Assembly: GCF_000723185.1 (NCBI RefSeq)
Contig: NZ_CBTY010000006.1
Coordinates: 1-64,000, forward strand
Length of the DNA: 64,000 bases
Origin: Candidatus Nitrosotenuis uzonensis
GTDB lineage: Archaea > Thermoproteota > Nitrososphaeria > Nitrososphaerales > Nitrosopumilaceae
Direction of reading: 5' to 3'
Below the pieces are notes generated by a model. It was given only the letters and a program-made list of their open reading frames with translations. It was not told where the DNA came from and made no database searches. Each line of letters starts with the position of its first letter. Within the stretch, counting starts at the first letter, position 1. This document shows, piece after piece, positions 36,602-46,286 of the stretch. Made by a program: the position numbers and the translations under genes.

Positions 36602-36665
36602 CATGGTGCTAACTCTTCGTTATTCAAATTCCAATTAAAAACACTCAAACTACCACGTTCGTATA

Positions 36666-38000
36666 TTGAAAAAACATGTGGCCATAATTGGAGCTGGAAT
36701 AAGTGGACTGTGTACTGGCGCGCTTCTTGCAAAGGAAGGAATTGAGGTAACAATATTCGAAAAATCTGCAAGAGTGGGCGGCAGAACAATCTCAACGCAA
36801 TTTCGTGGCCATATACTTGATAACGGATTTCATATAATGCCGTTCTACAAGACATCATCGGTTTATACAATTCTTGCAGATATTGGAGTATTAGGAAGAA
36901 TTCCACTTGCAAAGGTACATGATATATCATTCTATCAGAACGGTCAATTTCATAGATATCCAAAAGGACTTGGCGATATACTGCGCATGTCTCTTTTGCC
37001 TCTCAAAAGCAAGATTTCGCTTTTGAGAATACTGATTCCAATGGCATTTTCATCAATAAAAAGATCAGAGAAACTGGACGATCAATCACTTGATAGTATA
37101 ATATCCAAGCTCGAACCAAGGGCAAAGTCGTTTTTTGATGCAGTATGTATGCTTGCGTTTGCTGATACACCAGATCGAGTAGCCCTTGGGGAGTTTGTAA
37201 GGACGATAATACGAGCAAACCCGTTACGGGGTGGAACAAGCGAGTTTGCCTATCCCAGTGAAGGCGGTTACGATACCATCTGCAAGGTCCTTGCATCATA
37301 CATATTGGAGCAGGGAGGCAAGATACACTTCAATAGAAAAATAACCAAGGTACAGATAAAAGATGGCGTAATCAGGGGAATAGTGGAAGCAGGCGGAGGT
37401 ATCACTGAGGTTGACTGTGTGGTGATCTCATATCCTGCATATCTTGCGGTGCACGATCTGTTTGAGGAACAAATACTTGATGCAGAGTTTCTAAACTGGC
37501 TTGATCGCCTTCACAAGACGACGTCAGTGGTAGAAGTTCATTTTTGTCTTGCAGAAAAGATAGATACAAGACAGATCGTCTTCCCGATAAATTCTGGTTG
37601 TACTGCAAAAGGGATATTCTTTGTATCTAATATTTCTCCATCCGTATCGCCTCCTGGACAGCAGCTGATCATGGCAGGAACTCCCGTATCGCAGGAATAT
37701 GCAGATGATGCAAATAAGATAAGAGAGATCACCAAGAAAATGAAGATGGAGCTAGCAAACATGTATCCTGCCTTTGAGAGGAGTTTACTGTGGGAGCGTC
37801 CAATGTCATGGAAGCTTGTTGAGGCAGTAGTAAAGGAGCCCGGCATGGTGTGGAAGAAAAAGGCACCGCACCAGATTAGTGGAATAAACGGCCTTTTTTT
37901 CGTCGGGGATTCTACCGTAAGCTATGGAATAGGTACTGATTCTGCTGCACACAGCTCGCTCCTCTGTCATCCAAAAATACTCTCATATCTGAAAGGCTAG
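36666..38000 (+). CDS. FAD-dependent oxidoreductase (phytoene desaturase/amine oxidase family)
   Basis: 444 residues from a TTG start. N-terminal FAD dinucleotide motif 'VAIIGAGISGLCTGALLAKEGIEVTIFEKS', then 'GGRTIST' and a C-terminal 'GLFFVGDSTVSYGIGTDSAAHSS' FAD motif, typical of carotenoid desaturases and protoporphyrinogen oxidases. The substrate is unknown. A weak operator-like CTAGTGCTAC overlaps its stop codon, and TGGTGCTAA lies about 55 bp before its start, both reminiscent of the motif in the light cluster at 40-45 kb. Confidence 0.82.
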   Translation: MKKHVAIIGAGISGLCTGALLAKEGIEVTIFEKSARVGGRTISTQFRGHILDNGFHIMPFYKTSSVYTILADIGVLGRIPLAKVHDISFYQNGQFHRYPKGLGDILRMSLLPLKSKISLLRILIPMAFSSIKRSEKLDDQSLDSIISKLEPRAKSFFDAVCMLAFADTPDRVALGEFVRTIIRANPLRGGTSEFAYPSEGGYDTICKVLASYILEQGGKIHFNRKITKVQIKDGVIRGIVEAGGGITEVDCVVISYPAYLAVHDLFEEQILDAEFLNWLDRLHKTTSVVEVHFCLAEKIDTRQIVFPINSGCTAKGIFFVSNISPSVSPPGQQLIMAGTPVSQEYADDANKIREITKKMKMELANMYPAFERSLLWERPMSWKLVEAVVKEPGMVWKKKAPHQISGINGLFFVGDSTVSYGIGTDSAAHSSLLCHPKILSYLKG

Positions 38001-40022: not shown

Positions 40023-40877
40023 TTAGTGGAGGTCTAGCGGTATGCTTGCTGAGCCCCACGGCTCCTTTACGTTGAATTTATACTCTCTTGAGGGGTCGAA
40101 CTCAAAGTCAGTATAGCTTCCATATCCTATGGCAGGACCAAACAGCATATTGATAAATCTGGACTGTCCGGGTTTTAACACCACTTGACCGTTTGTAAAA
40201 TCGTGCGCAGAATACTTGTATGTTGTTTTGCCATCTGTCAAGTCATAATTACATACTGCAGGACCAGTACAGTAAAGCGTTATGTTATCGCTTGAGCCTG
40301 TGTTTTCCACTAGAAACTTCAAGTTAACAACGTCGGTATCAGTACTACTCTCAACCTTTGCTCCGGCGTAATAGAATGTAATCGGACCTATCGCATAGCC
40401 TTTCGCTTTTGTCTTGAATTGATCAACTTCGTATTTTACCTTTGTTTGCGTTTCACATTCGTATTGCTGACGCTGCGTTTCTTTTTGTCTACATACTTCA
40501 AGCTTTGATTCTAACGTATCTGTCTGTTGCGTTTGACGTACAGGGTCTACCACAACTATGCCGTTCTTTATGAGAAATTGGATTCCCTGAATAAAATCTC
40601 CGTCAGATATGGTTCCATCTGCCCACCATTTTGCATTGTTCTTGACCCATGCTGGTATATCAGAGGACATGCTAGTACCTTGGGCGGTTTCTGGTACCTT
40701 GATTATATTTCGAGTTACTAGATACTGTATGCCCTGTACAAAGTCAGAGTCGCCTATGGTTCCATCTGCCCACCATTTTGCATTGTTCTTGACCCATGCT
40801 GGTATTTCCTCGGCGCTTACATGCTGCCAGGACAATCCTACAAGTATGGCAATAGCAATTGTAACGATTGTTTTCAT
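40023..40877 (-). CDS. Exported protein with two W-rich repeats (thaumarchaeal surface type)
   Basis: 284 residues. Signal peptide (MKTIVTIAIAILVGLSWQHVSA), then two tandem copies of 'IPAWVKNNAKWWADG' plus '-DFVQGIQ-L-' (about 25-65 and 75-110), a motif abundant in Nitrososphaerota exported proteins, then a beta-rich C-terminal domain. Two 50-bp stretches in the repeats are identical in DNA (40609-40658, 40756-40805). A TATA box at 40898-40907 lies about 25 bp before the ATG, and the palindromic operator at 40927-40961 lies about 20 bp further, so it may belong to the light regulon. Confidence 0.75.
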   Translation of the reverse strand: MKTIVTIAIAILVGLSWQHVSAEEIPAWVKNNAKWWADGTIGDSDFVQGIQYLVTRNIIKVPETAQGTSMSSDIPAWVKNNAKWWADGTISDGDFIQGIQFLIKNGIVVVDPVRQTQQTDTLESKLEVCRQKETQRQQYECETQTKVKYEVDQFKTKAKGYAIGPITFYYAGAKVESSTDTDVVNLKFLVENTGSSDNITLYCTGPAVCNYDLTDGKTTYKYSAHDFTNGQVVLKPGQSRFINMLFGPAIGYGSYTDFEFDPSREYKFNVKEPWGSASIPLDLH

Positions 40878-40926: not shown

Positions 40927-40961
40927 CTAGTGCTAATTCTTTTATCTGGATTTAGCACTAG
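40927..40961. promoter_or_regulatory. Inverted-repeat operator CTAGTGCTAA-N15-TTAGCACTAG
   Basis: Two perfect 10-bp arms (40927-40936, 40952-40961) with a 15-bp spacer sit midway between two divergent TATA boxes (40898-40907 minus, 40981-40990 plus). The same sequence occurs in both orientations at 44543 and 44598 around the CarH-like gene. Confidence 0.75.
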
Positions 40962-41241: not shown

Positions 41242-41575
41242 TAAGAGTATAAACCTTGATATCTTGGCAAGTAGCTTTGAGCCCATCTTCGTTAGGGAAC
41301 CGTATATCATCAAGATTCAAGACATATTTGTTAGTAAGTCAAAAAAATCAGCACTTGTTCCTACAGTGATAGTGGACAAGAAAAACCAAAATTTCCTAAT
41401 AGAAATATTTGCAAAGGACAACAAAACCACTATACGATTATTTCCATGGACAGATCCTGAAAAAACAGATGGCGTCAAGATGGCACTTGGATATCTTTCA
41501 GCCATAATACAGCGCAAGTTTGACATAGCTTGTGTCTCTAGAACAAATATCTTGGAATTCATACCTGCAATTTAG
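41222..41575 (+). CDS. Hypothetical protein (117 aa) coupled to the zinc-ribbon gene
   Basis: Soluble alpha/beta protein with no recognised family. It overlaps the upstream zinc-ribbon gene by 20 bp and the convergent photolyase gene by 17 bp. Position suggests light-regulated expression with its upstream neighbour; function not inferred. Confidence 0.55.
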   Translation: MPHVVFDKSINLDILASSFEPIFVREPYIIKIQDIFVSKSKKSALVPTVIVDKKNQNFLIEIFAKDNKTTIRLFPWTDPEKTDGVKMALGYLSAIIQRKFDIACVSRTNILEFIPAI

Positions 41576-42965
41576 TACGATATTGCCTGAAAAGTTTTTT
41601 TGTAATTGATGATTCTATACTATGATCCACTATTGGAGGTGGATAGTCTATACCAGTAGGTCGCATCTTGTACAAATTGTGAATCTGTTTTGCTTTAAGA
41701 CCGGCAAGTTCTGGAATCCATTTTATGATGTAACTGCAGTCTGCGTCAAATTTTTTTTGCTGTCGCCACGGGTTAAAAATCCTGAACCATGGTTGTGCGT
41801 CACATCCTGTAGATGCAACCCATTGCCAATTTCCATTGTTTACGGCAGGGTCATAGTCTATAAGATTTTTGGCAAAATGCCGTTCCCCTATCTTCCAATC
41901 TATATGCAGATCCTTGACAAGAAATGACGCTGCGATCATTCTGATACGGTTGTGCATAAATCCTGTCTTATCTAACTGCCTCATCCCAGCATCAATTATG
42001 GGAAATCCAGTATTACCATTCTTCCATGCCTCTAGATGTTTCCTGTTACAGGACCATTTGATCTTGGAATATTTTGTGTTAAAAGGACCTGAAATCACAT
42101 GTGGGAAATGGTACAAAATATGTCCGAAAAACTCTCTCCAGTGGATCTGGCCCATCAAAGCATGATGCATACCAAGATAATCAGATATGGCATGATACAC
42201 TTCCCTTGAAGATACGGTGCCAAATCTGCTATGGGCAGAAAGCATGGTAGTGCCAGACAAACTGGGATAGTTACGCTCCCTGTCATATCCGGCAAAATCT
42301 GCAATTCTTTTGAGAATTTGAAGACCGTATTTCCTACCGCCAAATGTGGTAGAGACCTGCTCTAGTTTTGTTTTCAAGAACTTCTTACTAACTTCCTGAT
42401 TAAATAGCGTGCATTCAAAGTTCACATGTTTGTTCTGTACTGGCTTTGAGACTGGAATCTGTATTGCAGCCCTAAAAAACTGTGAGAATACCGTATACGG
42501 GTTACCCTTTTTGGTTTTAATCAGATCTGGATGGTACAAAAAATGATCTGTGTATTGCTGAAACCGTATGCTGGCCTTTTTACAAAACTCTGAAATTGAA
42601 TTCTGCCTCCTTTTTGCAAACAAAGTGTAATCTTGATTAATAAAGACCGCATCTATTTTCTGCTTACTGTCTATGTCATTGAGTGCTTTGACATAATCAC
42701 CTGAAAAAATATGCAAGGTTGCACTCATTCTTGTAAATTCATCTGCAAGATCCGTCAAACACTCTATCAAAAATTGTTTTCTGCGTTCTGGAATGTTTTC
42801 ATTTTCTACAAAGGTAGAATTTAACACAAAACATGGTATGACCCTTTGCGATCTCTTGCACGCTTCTAGTAGGGCAGTGTTATCGTGGATCCGCATGTCT
42901 CTGGTAAAGAAAAATACGGATCTTTCAAACTCAGGTTCAACCGAGTTATCTACAACTAAGTTCAT
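41559..42965 (-). CDS. phr: Deoxyribodipyrimidine photolyase (cryptochrome/photolyase family)
   Basis: Repairs cyclobutane pyrimidine dimers with light. From ATG at 42965 (468 residues; GTG/ATG at 42980 adds five). N-terminal Rossmann domain 'VFFFTRDMRIHDNTALLEA', then the FAD domain with 'LSAHSRFGTVSSREVYHA', 'QIHWREFFGHILYHFP', 'NTGFPIIDAGMRQLDKTGFMHNRIRMIAASFL', 'DYDPAVNNGNWQWVAS'. It contains the electron-relay Trp and Asn expected for CPD photolyase. A TATA-like AAAATAAAA (43003-43013 region, minus) and an operator half-site (43015-43024) lie upstream. Confidence 0.96.
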   Translation of the reverse strand: MNLVVDNSVEPEFERSVFFFTRDMRIHDNTALLEACKRSQRVIPCFVLNSTFVENENIPERRKQFLIECLTDLADEFTRMSATLHIFSGDYVKALNDIDSKQKIDAVFINQDYTLFAKRRQNSISEFCKKASIRFQQYTDHFLYHPDLIKTKKGNPYTVFSQFFRAAIQIPVSKPVQNKHVNFECTLFNQEVSKKFLKTKLEQVSTTFGGRKYGLQILKRIADFAGYDRERNYPSLSGTTMLSAHSRFGTVSSREVYHAISDYLGMHHALMGQIHWREFFGHILYHFPHVISGPFNTKYSKIKWSCNRKHLEAWKNGNTGFPIIDAGMRQLDKTGFMHNRIRMIAASFLVKDLHIDWKIGERHFAKNLIDYDPAVNNGNWQWVASTGCDAQPWFRIFNPWRQQKKFDADCSYIIKWIPELAGLKAKQIHNLYKMRPTGIDYPPPIVDHSIESSITKKLFRQYRTKLQV

Positions 42966-43014
42966 GCAGCTATCAGGCAACCGAATCCAATAAAAACTGG
43001 TAACATTTTATTTT

Positions 43015-43024
43015 CTAGTGGTAA
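43015..43024. promoter_or_regulatory. Operator half-site CTAGTGGTAA between photolyase and DUF1722 genes
   Basis: Matches CTAGTGCTAA at nine of ten positions and sits just upstream of the photolyase TATA box. No inverted partner was found nearby. Confidence 0.4.
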
Positions 43025-43076
43025 TGCTCAGACTGATGTTTTCTACTTAAAATATAATTTCCAAGTAACTCCTACA

Positions 43077-43595
43077 ATGAATACACAAAAAAATGATTCT
43101 GGCGCCCTGCTTTCACATAATGAAATACGAGACTATGTAATCAGGAGTTTTATTGAGGCAAAAAACAAAGGCGACATTAACGAGCTTGTACATTTTCACT
43201 CCATCAACAAATTTCTTCTATTGGCGCATAGCCAAGATGATGCGGTAGTACTAGGCAGACTAGTTGCAAATAAGGAACGGCTTGCATACTCAAAGATATT
43301 TGAGATCTATGGGATACAGCTTGAAAAAACATTAAACAAAGAGCCTACAATAAGAACACACTCGAACGTTATACAAAAGACAATAGGATACTTCAAAAAG
43401 GATCTTTCTTTAAAAGAAAAACAATCCGCCCTTGCCATGCTCTCAATGTATAGATTGGGACAGGAAAATCTAGAGTCATTACTGTTGTTTTTAGATGATT
43501 TGACTAGGAAATTCCAGAAGACATATCTGGTAAGACAGACCTATTTCTTGCTCTACGTAAGAGTCAAATCACAAGAATTTGATTCACATCGATGA
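43077..43595 (+). CDS. DUF1722 (YbgA-like) protein
   Basis: 172 residues. Matches the DUF1722 pattern: 'FLLLAHSQDDAVVLGRLVANKERLAYSKIFEIYGIQLEK', 'THSNVIQKTIGYFKKDLSLKEKQSALAMLSMYRLGQ', '...YLVRQTYFL'. In E. coli ybgA is upstream of the photolyase gene phr, and here it is divergently paired with photolyase, which supports a light- or DNA-repair-linked role. The biochemical function is unknown. TATA-like 'TTAAAATATAA' at 43047-43057 lies about 25 bp before the ATG. Confidence 0.78.
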   Translation: MNTQKNDSGALLSHNEIRDYVIRSFIEAKNKGDINELVHFHSINKFLLLAHSQDDAVVLGRLVANKERLAYSKIFEIYGIQLEKTLNKEPTIRTHSNVIQKTIGYFKKDLSLKEKQSALAMLSMYRLGQENLESLLLFLDDLTRKFQKTYLVRQTYFLLYVRVKSQEFDSHR

Positions 43596-43619: not shown

Positions 43620-44495
43620 TCATGCGTGAGCAGGACTAACGTGTCTTCTGATGCCAGATAACATCATTCGTGATAGAGCTTTAAGATTATTCTCCAGTAT
43701 TATTTGGGCGCCACCAACTTTGGCATTAGTTTGGTTTTTGAACGCTTGACCGCCTACAAATATCGGAACGTGTGTCCTTTCCAAGATCTTTTTTACCAAT
43801 CTCTGACCAGGTTTTATGTTGTCTGGCAGTGTAATTGAGATAACCACAAGATCAGGCTTTGAGGATTCGACAAACCTTGCGATTGATTCGTGTGGCTCTG
43901 TCGGTGTCAGATTGTATACTTTGTGGCCCATACTGGCAAAGTTAGTTTCTAATATGTTAGCGCCAAGATTGTGTTCTTCGCCCTCAGGAACACAAATAAT
44001 GATCTTCTTTTTTCTCTGCACATGAGCGTATTTACTGTTTATCATCTTTACTAGCGTGTTTGCAATGTTACTTGCAACATGCTCGTCTGCTATTCCTATC
44101 TCGTTTCTTTCCCACATGTCTCCAATCTTGTACATGACTGGAGTAAGGATCTTCTCAAAAAAGCTCATCATTCCAGATGTTTTAGAATAGCTATCATAGA
44201 TCTGCTTTGTGGCATCAAAATCCCCTTTTATGAGGTGACGATATAACTGAACCCTTAGTTTTGCTAACATGTTCTCCCTTTCTGCTATTTGTGTATTATC
44301 AATAGAAGACAGGTAAGCGATTATTTTCACATTGTTCCTATAGTCTTGTGGCAGATCATCCTTTGTTACCTCTGATGCCTTTCCCAAGTATTTGATTGTC
44401 TCCTGCCTTGCTGTATTCTTTTTTGGATCCCAGACACTTTTTACAAGATACAAATATTTCTCACCTTTTACTGTTTTAGCTCTTAGGTAAACCAT
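43620..44495 (-). CDS. CarH-like B12-binding photoreceptor/regulator with an unusual N-terminus
   Basis: 291 residues. Residues about 75-150 form the four-helix B12 cap with W128-x9-E138-H139, the signature of AdoCbl photoreceptors (CarH/LitR) where light breaks the Co-C bond. Residues about 160-285 form the B12-binding Rossmann fold with E173-x-H175-x2-G178 (lower-ligand His) and 'LVVISITLPDN'. The N-terminus lacks the MerR-type helix-turn-helix of CarH. Instead residues 1-45 ('VYLRAKTVKGEKYLYLVKSVWDPKKN...TIKYLGK') look like the N-terminal part of IS1634-type transposases, possibly a new DNA-binding module. A leaderless promoter is likely (AT-rich box about 25 bp upstream), with an operator arm at 44543 just beyond it. 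Confidence 0.85.
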   Translation of the reverse strand: MVYLRAKTVKGEKYLYLVKSVWDPKKNTARQETIKYLGKASEVTKDDLPQDYRNNVKIIAYLSSIDNTQIAERENMLAKLRVQLYRHLIKGDFDATKQIYDSYSKTSGMMSFFEKILTPVMYKIGDMWERNEIGIADEHVASNIANTLVKMINSKYAHVQRKKKIIICVPEGEEHNLGANILETNFASMGHKVYNLTPTEPHESIARFVESSKPDLVVISITLPDNIKPGQRLVKKILERTHVPIFVGGQAFKNQTNAKVGGAQIILENNLKALSRMMLSGIRRHVSPAHA

Positions 44496-44542
44496 GAACG
44501 TGTTCCATATGTCAAATTAATAAATAATGTTAAAGATTCATT

Positions 44543-44552
44543 CTAGTGCTAA
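44543..44552. promoter_or_regulatory. Operator arm CTAGTGCTAA upstream of the CarH-like gene
   Basis: Identical to the left arm at 40927. It lies 48 bp before the start codon of the CarH-like gene, just beyond its TATA-like box. Its inverted partner is at 44598-44607. Confidence 0.65.
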
Positions 44553-44597
44553 AATTTTAAATTACATTCGTAAAAGCCTTAACAAAACAGTATGCAA

Positions 44598-44626
44598 TTA
44601 GCACTAGTAGTTAATTTTACTACTAG
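44598..44626. promoter_or_regulatory. Operator arm TTAGCACTAG plus overlapping CTAGTAG/CTACTAG inverted repeat
   Basis: TTAGCACTAG (44598-44607) is followed by CTAGTAG (44604-44610), nine bases, then CTACTAG (44620-44626), immediately before an AT-rich TATA region (44628-44640) of the plus-strand genes. Confidence 0.6.
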
Positions 44627-44698
44627 CTTAAATAATATAATTTGAAAGAACATACATGAAGCAGCAAATAAAAATACAAAGCATACAAGTGCAGCCCC

Positions 44699-44911
44699 AT
44701 GGTGATTCTCACGGATAAATTTCTAGTTGGAATAGGTTCTTGTCTTGTGGCGTTGGGAGTTGCCTTTTTACTTGCTACGCCATACATGTTAGATACACGC
44801 GATCCATTTGTGTTAGGTGGATTTTTTTGGTCTATTGTAGGTGGAACTACTATTGGATTTGGTTGGCATGCCGGAGACAAAAAGACAAAACAGCTTAATA
44901 CCATGCGTTAA
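44699..44911 (+). CDS. Small membrane protein (70 aa)
   Basis: Two hydrophobic segments ('FLVGIGSCLVALGVAFLLATPYML' and 'FVLGGFFWSIVGGTTIGFGWHAG') joined by a short loop, with a basic C-terminus. It begins about 60 bp after the TATA region that follows the operator. A 20-residue frame (ATG 44656) precedes it and is probably not a gene. Gap of 4 bp to the SDR gene, so a bicistronic unit is likely. Confidence 0.6.
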   Translation: MVILTDKFLVGIGSCLVALGVAFLLATPYMLDTRDPFVLGGFFWSIVGGTTIGFGWHAGDKKTKQLNTMR

Positions 44912-44915
44912 ACCC

Positions 44916-46286
44916 ATGCAAGCAAATACTGTTTCTTGCCAAGAGAAACCCTATAGCATATTGATTACAGGTGCTACTGGCTTTATTGGTTCTCGCCTTG
45001 TTGTTTCATTTACAAACAAGGGCTATTCTGTAAAGGCCTTATCAAGAAAAGATATGGCTGATCGTCAGAGCGTTCGATTTGTAAAAGCTGATATGTTCAA
45101 CATGGAGCAACTGGAAGCAGCACTAAATGAAGTAGATGTAGCGTACTATCTAGTCCATTCCATGGAAGGAGATAAGAAGAACTGGAAAGAATTTGCATCA
45201 AGGGAGCGAATTCAAGCACAGAACTTTCTCAAGGCCGCAACAACGGCCGGAGTTAAGAGAATAATATATCTTGGAGGTTTGGCAGATGAGGAATTAGATC
45301 TCTCACCTCATATGAAAAGTAGACACGATGTTGGAAAGATACTCTCTTCTGGAAGCATACCTGTCACACAATTACGTGCCTCATTGATAATAGGTGCAGG
45401 CGGAGGGTCTTATGCAATGCTAAGATATCTTGTAGAACGGCTAAGAATAATGGTTTGTCCAAGATGGGTAAAATCAATGGCGCAGCCTATAGCATTAGAT
45501 GATGTGATTGATTATTTGATTGAGTGTATAGAAAAACCAGAAACTACTGGAAGAACATTTGACATAGGTGGTCCAGAACGACTAACTTATGAACAGCTTA
45601 TGCGAATCTATTCTGCATATCTGAACAAAAATCTCTTTGTTATACATATACCATTTCTTACTACACGGCTTTCCTCGTATTGGGTCGATCTAATAACTCC
45701 CGTAAAGGCTTCACTTGCAAGGCCTCTGATTGACAGCCTTGTACACGACACAGTTGTCAGAGACGATTCCATAACAAAAATCATTCATCTCAAACTTCGT
45801 TCAGTAAGGGAAGCAATAGATCTGGCAACAATGGAAATTAACAAAAATCCGCCTCCTGAAGAGATCAAAGAAAGCAAGACTGGTTTTAAAACAAACCAGC
45901 GCCTCTTACTTGCATCTCTTTTTGTAATGTCCTTTATAGGTACAACTTATTATTGGCTAGACGACCGACAAGAAGTATACCAACTCGGTTGGATTTTGGC
46001 TTCAGCATTGTGGCTTGTCACAATCGGATTCTCAATTCTATTTGTTAAAAATAAGACAAGACTTGGATACCTTGTTGCAGGAATACTCTCATGGGCCACT
46101 CTAGCATTCTGGCTATTTGACAACTATTACGTCGTATTCCAAGATTCTATAATAGCAAGACAGCCAAACTTTGAGATGACTGTGAGGAACTTTGTCGGAG
46201 TTATAGTCGCATGCACTTCAATACTTGCATCTCATAACGTCTTTCATAAAATACACTCATATCAGTATCGAGGTGTGCCTGTCTAG
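44916..46286 (+). CDS. Atypical SDR / NAD(P)-dependent epimerase with C-terminal membrane segments
   Basis: 456 residues from ATG 44916. NAD(P)-binding 'SILITGATGFIGSRLVVSF' (about 13-35), 'VDVAYYLVHSM' and 'GVKRIIYLGGLADEE', typical of NDUFA9-like atypical SDRs. The C-terminal 130 residues contain about four transmembrane helices ('LLLASLFVMSFIGTTYYW', 'LGWILASALWLVTIGFSILF'). SDRs of this type are frequent in CarH/LitR-controlled clusters (family knowledge). Substrate unknown. The frame opens earlier (44841) but overlaps the upstream gene. Confidence 0.82.
   Translation: MQANTVSCQEKPYSILITGATGFIGSRLVVSFTNKGYSVKALSRKDMADRQSVRFVKADMFNMEQLEAALNEVDVAYYLVHSMEGDKKNWKEFASRERIQAQNFLKAATTAGVKRIIYLGGLADEELDLSPHMKSRHDVGKILSSGSIPVTQLRASLIIGAGGGSYAMLRYLVERLRIMVCPRWVKSMAQPIALDDVIDYLIECIEKPETTGRTFDIGGPERLTYEQLMRIYSAYLNKNLFVIHIPFLTTRLSSYWVDLITPVKASLARPLIDSLVHDTVVRDDSITKIIHLKLRSVREAIDLATMEINKNPPPEEIKESKTGFKTNQRLLLASLFVMSFIGTTYYWLDDRQEVYQLGWILASALWLVTIGFSILFVKNKTRLGYLVAGILSWATLAFWLFDNYYVVFQDSIIARQPNFEMTVRNFVGVIVACTSILASHNVFHKIHSYQYRGVPV

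Follow-up and report, generated by a model that had tools for sequence, protein, structure and literature searches.

A candidate B12-dependent light sensor with a non-helix-turn-helix N-terminal module and a conserved promoter operator in Candidatus Nitrosotenuis uzonensis and its relatives

The locus and its B12-binding protein

The window analyzed here comprises 64,000 nucleotides of Candidatus Nitrosotenuis uzonensis (contig NZ_CBTY010000006.1, positions 1 to 64,000), and within it the gene of a putative B12-dependent sensor lies among the following features.

36666..38000, plus strand: FAD-dependent amine-oxidase/desaturase-like protein, with only a weak half-site in this window
40023-40877, minus strand: secreted protein with tandem PAWVKNNAKWWADG repeats, most relatives of which are operator-bearing
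40928..40936, minus strand: TTAGCACTA in the promoter of the secreted-protein gene, with TATA-like TTTATATAA downstream
40952..40960, plus strand: TTAGCACTA in the promoter of a divergent zinc-finger ORF, with TTAAATA downstream
41559-42980, minus strand: DNA photolyase (FAD_binding_7, 8-HDF-like)
43000..43040, minus strand: single half-site TTACCACTA between the photolyase and DUF1722 genes, half-site score 14.3 of 17.6
43077-43595, plus strand: stand-alone DUF1722 protein
43620-44495, minus strand: predicted B12-dependent sensor/regulator, 291 aa, from the reading frame and Pfam
44525..44552, minus strand: predicted operator pair in the sensor-gene promoter, TTAGCACTA-N10-TTAACATTA, then TATA-like TTTATTAA
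44598..44625, plus strand: predicted SDR-facing operator pair, TTAGCACTA-N10-TTACTACTA, then TTAAATAATATA
44699..44911, plus strand: small membrane ORF of ~70 aa lying after the operator and before the SDR gene
about 44916-46286, plus strand: atypical SDR (NmrA/NAD_binding_10) with a membrane C-terminus

Pfam matches and coordinates place the photolyase and DUF1722 genes on one side of the sensor gene and the atypical SDR on the other, as the initial annotation had described. The span 43620-44911, which it had cited for the protein, is only in part the sensor gene (43620-44495, minus strand); the remainder is the divergent promoter region and the small membrane ORF. The latter is probably co-transcribed with the SDR gene, and ORFs 43% identical to it occur in loci L041 and L042. 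The secreted protein at 40023-40877 matched no Pfam family. In other genomes, relatives of the FAD oxidase adjoin the sensor gene and have the operator themselves; a candidate site at 36604-36612, near the oxidase gene of the window, was dropped as too weak a match.

The sensor half of the protein consists of a four-helix cap (residues ~67-155) carrying W128, E138 and H139 and a Rossmann B12 domain (~160-290) carrying H175. Pfam recognizes B12-binding_2 at residues 83-151 (49.3 bits, cut-off 23) and B12-binding at residues 164-253 (48.2 bits, cut-off 32.1), and no further family in the 291 residues. Both motifs on which the CarH-like reading of the initial annotation was based, W128-x9-E138-H139 and E173-x-H175-x2-G178, are present in the protein. 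In the alignment of the W-bearing family, whose 76 members span four families of the archaeal class, G125, W128, E138, H139, H175 and P201 are invariant, G172 is kept in 75 members, and E173 is nearly invariant; the identity of W128, E138, H139 and H175 in 76/76 indicates that the W/EH/H motif is not a chance occurrence.

According to the SignatureFinder work (PMC11796333), the light signature of cobalamin-binding domains is GxxW, EH, GxxH and GxxxP, and exemplar proteins bearing it were verified experimentally. Of this signature, the window protein has the first three elements, and its fourth is TxxxP, with T197 replacing G. The G of this element is found in 33 of the 76 relatives, and its P is P201.

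When the family profile was compared with solved structures, the highest scores were those of photocobilin (80 bits), CtMerR (71) and CarH (66), followed by corrinoid methyl carriers (59), MetH (56) and AerR (46.6). The predicted fold likewise matches photocobilin best (Z 22.5, 2.4 A, 205 residues), with Z of 19.9 for CtMerR, 18.6 for a MetH fragment and 17.4 for CarH; the full-length model (pLDDT 74) was built from 5 sequences and is therefore of moderate confidence. CarH and MetH are not separable by fold alone but are separable by pocket residues, and the MetH of the same genome, as read from its sequence, has DVHDIG and a cap with neither W nor EH. The NCBIfam CarH equivalog model (65.9 bits, cut-off 400) and the best curated corrinoid-protein model (39.5 bits, cut-off 215.3) both scored below their cut-offs. 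The genome also encodes a mutase-type B12 small subunit, identified by sequence character, which suggests that AdoCbl may be used in this organism.

We infer that the sensor binds AdoCbl and responds photochemically. Position 129, the equivalent of CarH His132, is never His in the 76 members, which precludes a bis-His light state of the CarH type at this position; the light state would need to be like that of photocobilin or CtMerR, not that of Thermus CarH. The CarH variant H132A is reported to be still largely tetrameric in light (PMC10442372). Photocobilin and CtMerR respond to light without a bis-His state, so that His132 is not a general requirement among light-responsive relatives.

Full-length orthologues with 73-30% identity are found in the same genus, in its family and in other families of the class. 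Outside the class, among 300 genomes of the phylum, the sensor was not found, apart from weak matches in one genome, and viral contigs contained no relatives. Seven paralogues (L126, L130, L131, L133, L137, L140 and L145) have neither W nor EH and keep H175 (EQHTLG). By analogy with CarA/class II LitR among the bacterial CarH relatives, this clade is possibly a light-insensitive regulator. It adjoins two conserved small genes (clusters c43 and c44).

The N-terminal module

Residues 1-60, where the initial annotation saw a basic module in place of a MerR domain, are predicted to form three strands and one helix in the order beta-beta-beta-alpha (pLDDT 91), and 17 of these positions are invariant in 15 members. 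The MerR domain is indeed absent, since Pfam is silent on residues 1-60 of the window protein, MerR included, and the model is not a helix-turn-helix. A search of PDB sequences with these residues returned no match, and when the model was compared with PDB folds, Foldseek found nothing below E 0.3 and VIA nothing higher than Z 3.9. PC4-like and ribosomal-protein fold matches were too weak to use, and the AP2/integrase-arm type of fold expected for a three-stranded module was not among the PDB matches; we therefore give the module no fold name.

A profile of residues 1-60 matched a DDE_Tnp_1 transposase of the archaeal class over residues 7-40 (E 5e-8) and a Fic protein of the same class (E 3e-4). 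The likeness to a transposase N-terminus remarked on earlier is thus genuine, if distant, and holds in substance; it concerns residues 1-48 of the sensor, and the transposase and Fic domains themselves are absent. The module is also present in family members across the archaeal class, and we consider it the presumptive DNA-binding part of the sensor. Three truncated or stand-alone proteins of about 67-138 aa (L153:4492-4905, L148 and L152) consist of the N-terminal module only.

A paired operator and the genes that carry it

Upstream of the sensor gene lie two direct repeats with the consensus TTAGCACTA-N10-TTAGCAYTA-GTTATATA. Of 75 W-bearing family genes, 63 have the pair within 110 bp upstream, compared with 0.7% in shuffled sequences. 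The repeats are spaced 19 bp apart in 58 genes and 20 bp in five, and besides the home family, two more families of the order have the pair. The second repeat ends ~2 bp before a TATA-like box, and the distance from its end to the start codon is usually 28-31 bp. The seven paralogues lacking W and EH have no TTAGCACTA pair upstream; six of them have instead a common element, GGTGCGTAA (GGTGCGTAAT).

In the window, the TAGTGCTAA sites noted previously are found at 44544-44552(-) and 44598-44606(+), and two further ones lie at 40928-40936(-) and 40952-40960(+). The exact 9-mer TTAGCACTA has 14 matches in this genome, of which the four intergenic ones (40928-40960 and 44544-44606) are all in the sensor cluster and the remaining 10 are inside coding sequence without a partner repeat. 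The second half-sites are degenerate in this genome, hence the absence of any exact match to TTAGCACTA-N9..14-TTAGCA. We also considered whether TTAGCACTA might be a promoter element in general use in the lineage and rejected this, because the 14 exact matches are no enrichment over the 15 of a reversed control, and because genomes that have no sensor gene lack the pair.

Across 52 genomes, the exact pair was found in 23 of 26 with the sensor gene and in one of 26 without it (p 3e-10, a value that ignores kinship). When sites in the gene's own promoter were left out, the proportions were 16/26 and 1/26 (p 1e-5, kinship likewise ignored); among these sites, the one in genome G111 falls in a coding region. 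Of the 15 exact pairs in nine genomes, 14 are near a family gene (<=6.5 kb). In genome G010 the SDR and sensor genes are on separate contigs, and the SDR gene keeps its operator. That protein, operator and target genes covary in this way is the chief new evidence for the sensor as a transcription regulator.

Two outlying sites were observed. The sole sensor-less genome with an exact pair, G148 (L218, position 1641), is a draft in 120 contigs that has a photolyase, and the sensor gene may therefore be missing from the assembly. In G138 (L223, position 2709), an exact pair with a TATA box is distant from sensor genes, and the gene behind it is a small ORF (~65 aa) whose sequence is membrane-like.

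Within about 9 kb of the sensor, the most frequent neighbor is the SDR (54 loci), followed by the secreted protein (cluster c1, 52 loci), DUF1722 (43), flavin oxidase (28) and photolyase (18). The operator pair precedes 48 of 62 secreted-protein genes, 21 of 28 flavin oxidase genes and 24 of 58 SDR genes, and most other neighbor gene clusters have none upstream. A reverse half-site precedes DUF1722 in 42/42 loci, in part because DUF1722 diverges from operator-bearing genes; the photolyase gene has a single half-site only, restricted to one genus. The initial annotation had likened this setting to bacterial light-response clusters, and it agrees with LitR clusters in content: that of Pseudomonas contains phrB, an SDR and an FAD oxidoreductase (PMC9758184), and LitR light operons include DUF1722 proteins (PMC11417400).

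The sensor gene is present in 29 of the 30 photolyase-bearing genomes of the family, with the photolyase within 10 kb of it in 16 of those 29, and in about 46 of the 106 photolyase-negative genomes, and therefore it does not serve photolyase alone.

A proposed light switch and its alternatives

The combination of a CarH-type sensor, a new N-terminus and an own operator placed before genes of a photolyase neighborhood makes a B12 light switch for sun-damage genes very probable in these nitrifier-lineage archaea. In our interpretation, which we regard as likely, the gene encodes an AdoCbl-dependent, light-responsive transcription regulator that is bound to its operator as a repressor in the dark and released by light; autoregulation is the best reading of the pair in its own promoter. 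In the dark, W128, E138 and H139 would hold the adenosyl group of AdoCbl and H175 the cobalt, and the loaded B12 module would keep the protein oligomeric. The beta-beta-beta-alpha modules of the oligomer would then sit on the two TTAGCACTA repeats beside the TATA box and hinder TFB/TBP, so that the sensor gene, the SDR and the secreted protein, and probably also the photolyase/DUF1722 unit, would be kept low. Light would cleave the cobalt-carbon bond, the oligomer would alter or dissociate, and the freed promoter would allow products that deal with photodamage to be made.

The results support a new DNA-linked regulatory route by a non-helix-turn-helix protein. With CarH/class I LitR of Thermus and Myxococcus, the sensor has in common the four-helix cap and Rossmann B12 domain, W-x9-EH and ExH, the light-gene neighborhood and a repeat operator in its own promoter; it differs in having neither the MerR helix-turn-helix nor His132, in its archaeal host, and in an operator made of two direct repeats at 19-bp spacing next to an archaeal TATA box. 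Membership of CarH/LitR as defined by the MerR domain thus fails, although the archaeal sensor would work like CarH. The photocobilins (SasPcob and AbPcob; PDB 8J2W-8J2Y), nearest by profile score and fold, have the same W/EH/H pocket but combine it with a bilin-binding globin domain and a diguanylate cyclase, in place of which the archaeal sensor has a small N-terminal module and an operator; no globin-like bilin-binding domain is found in the window protein, which ends at residue 291, shortly after the B12 domain. CtMerR of Chloracidobacterium (PDB 8JBS/8JBT), second nearest in fold, has a light-responsive B12 domain and, unlike the archaeal sensor, a MerR DNA-binding domain. Every part of the earlier suggestion of a photoreceptor with a DNA-linked route that computation could address was borne out, and it is strengthened by these sequence and fold neighbors, which are AdoCbl photoreceptors known from experiment, by the gene neighborhood and by the operator co-occurrence.

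A possible, minority form of the same reading is that the sensor is an activator: it would recruit TFB/TBP from a position immediately upstream of the TATA box, and light would switch activation on or off. This position is also where archaeal activators bind. The second repeat, however, ends ~2 bp short of the TATA box and therefore overlaps where the TFB recognition element would lie, and CarH-type proteins are dark repressors (PMC10442372); we thus describe the sensor as probably a dark repressor.

It is unlikely that the sensor makes no DNA contact of its own and acts on another TTAGCACTA-binding transcription factor. There is a precedent in AerR of Rhodobacter, a B12-binding light regulator that, like the archaeal sensor, has no classical DNA-binding domain, does not bind DNA directly and acts through CrtJ (PMC6199135), and the N-terminal module has no recognized DNA-binding fold in the PDB searches. 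Candidate partners near the sensor are TFB paralogues, present at 36 loci, and a winged-helix protein, present at 10 loci of one genus. The latter is too restricted to match an operator that tracks the sensor gene across genomes, and the sensor paralogues without W and EH, which lack the TTAGCACTA pair, have their own different element GGTGCGTAAT. The archaeal sensor also differs from AerR in its gene-linked operator and its additional module.

We find it quite improbable that the regulator senses the AdoCbl level or redox state instead of light, the light genes being linked to it otherwise. Tetramer formation by CarH does need AdoCbl, the mutase-type subunit points to this cofactor, and many genomes have the sensor gene without photolyase, but the sensor has photolyase, DUF1722, SDR and flavin oxidase as neighbors, just as in bacterial light clusters, and genes for B12 synthesis or uptake were not seen in their company. 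That the protein is instead a non-regulatory B12 enzyme subunit, such as a corrinoid methyl carrier, would be in keeping with the fold common with MetH and methylamine corrinoid proteins, yet is highly improbable given the absence of an adjoining methyltransferase gene, the invariant adenosyl-pocket residues W and EH, the photoreceptors as closest profile and fold matches, and the operator conserved in its own and other promoters.

For a light-responsive regulator of this kind, we found no archaeal B12 photoreceptor described in the open-access papers searched, and the SignatureFinder main text (PMC11796333) makes no mention of Archaea; some family members may already be among the 1561 sequences of its network without being named. 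On balance, we lean toward regarding this as the first archaeal B12 photoreceptor system, in which a CarH-type sensor is fused to a transposase-derived, non-helix-turn-helix DNA-binding module and acts through a TATA-adjacent operator on a lineage-wide light regulon.

Inhibition by light has long been a topic in work on ammonia-oxidising archaea, and photoreceptor-driven gene regulation in them is not described in the literature found. If our interpretation is true, Archaea use B12 photoreception together with a new DNA-recognition module, and the regulon and operator of an archaeal light switch are already spelled out in testable form. A compact B12 light switch for archaeal promoters would then become available.
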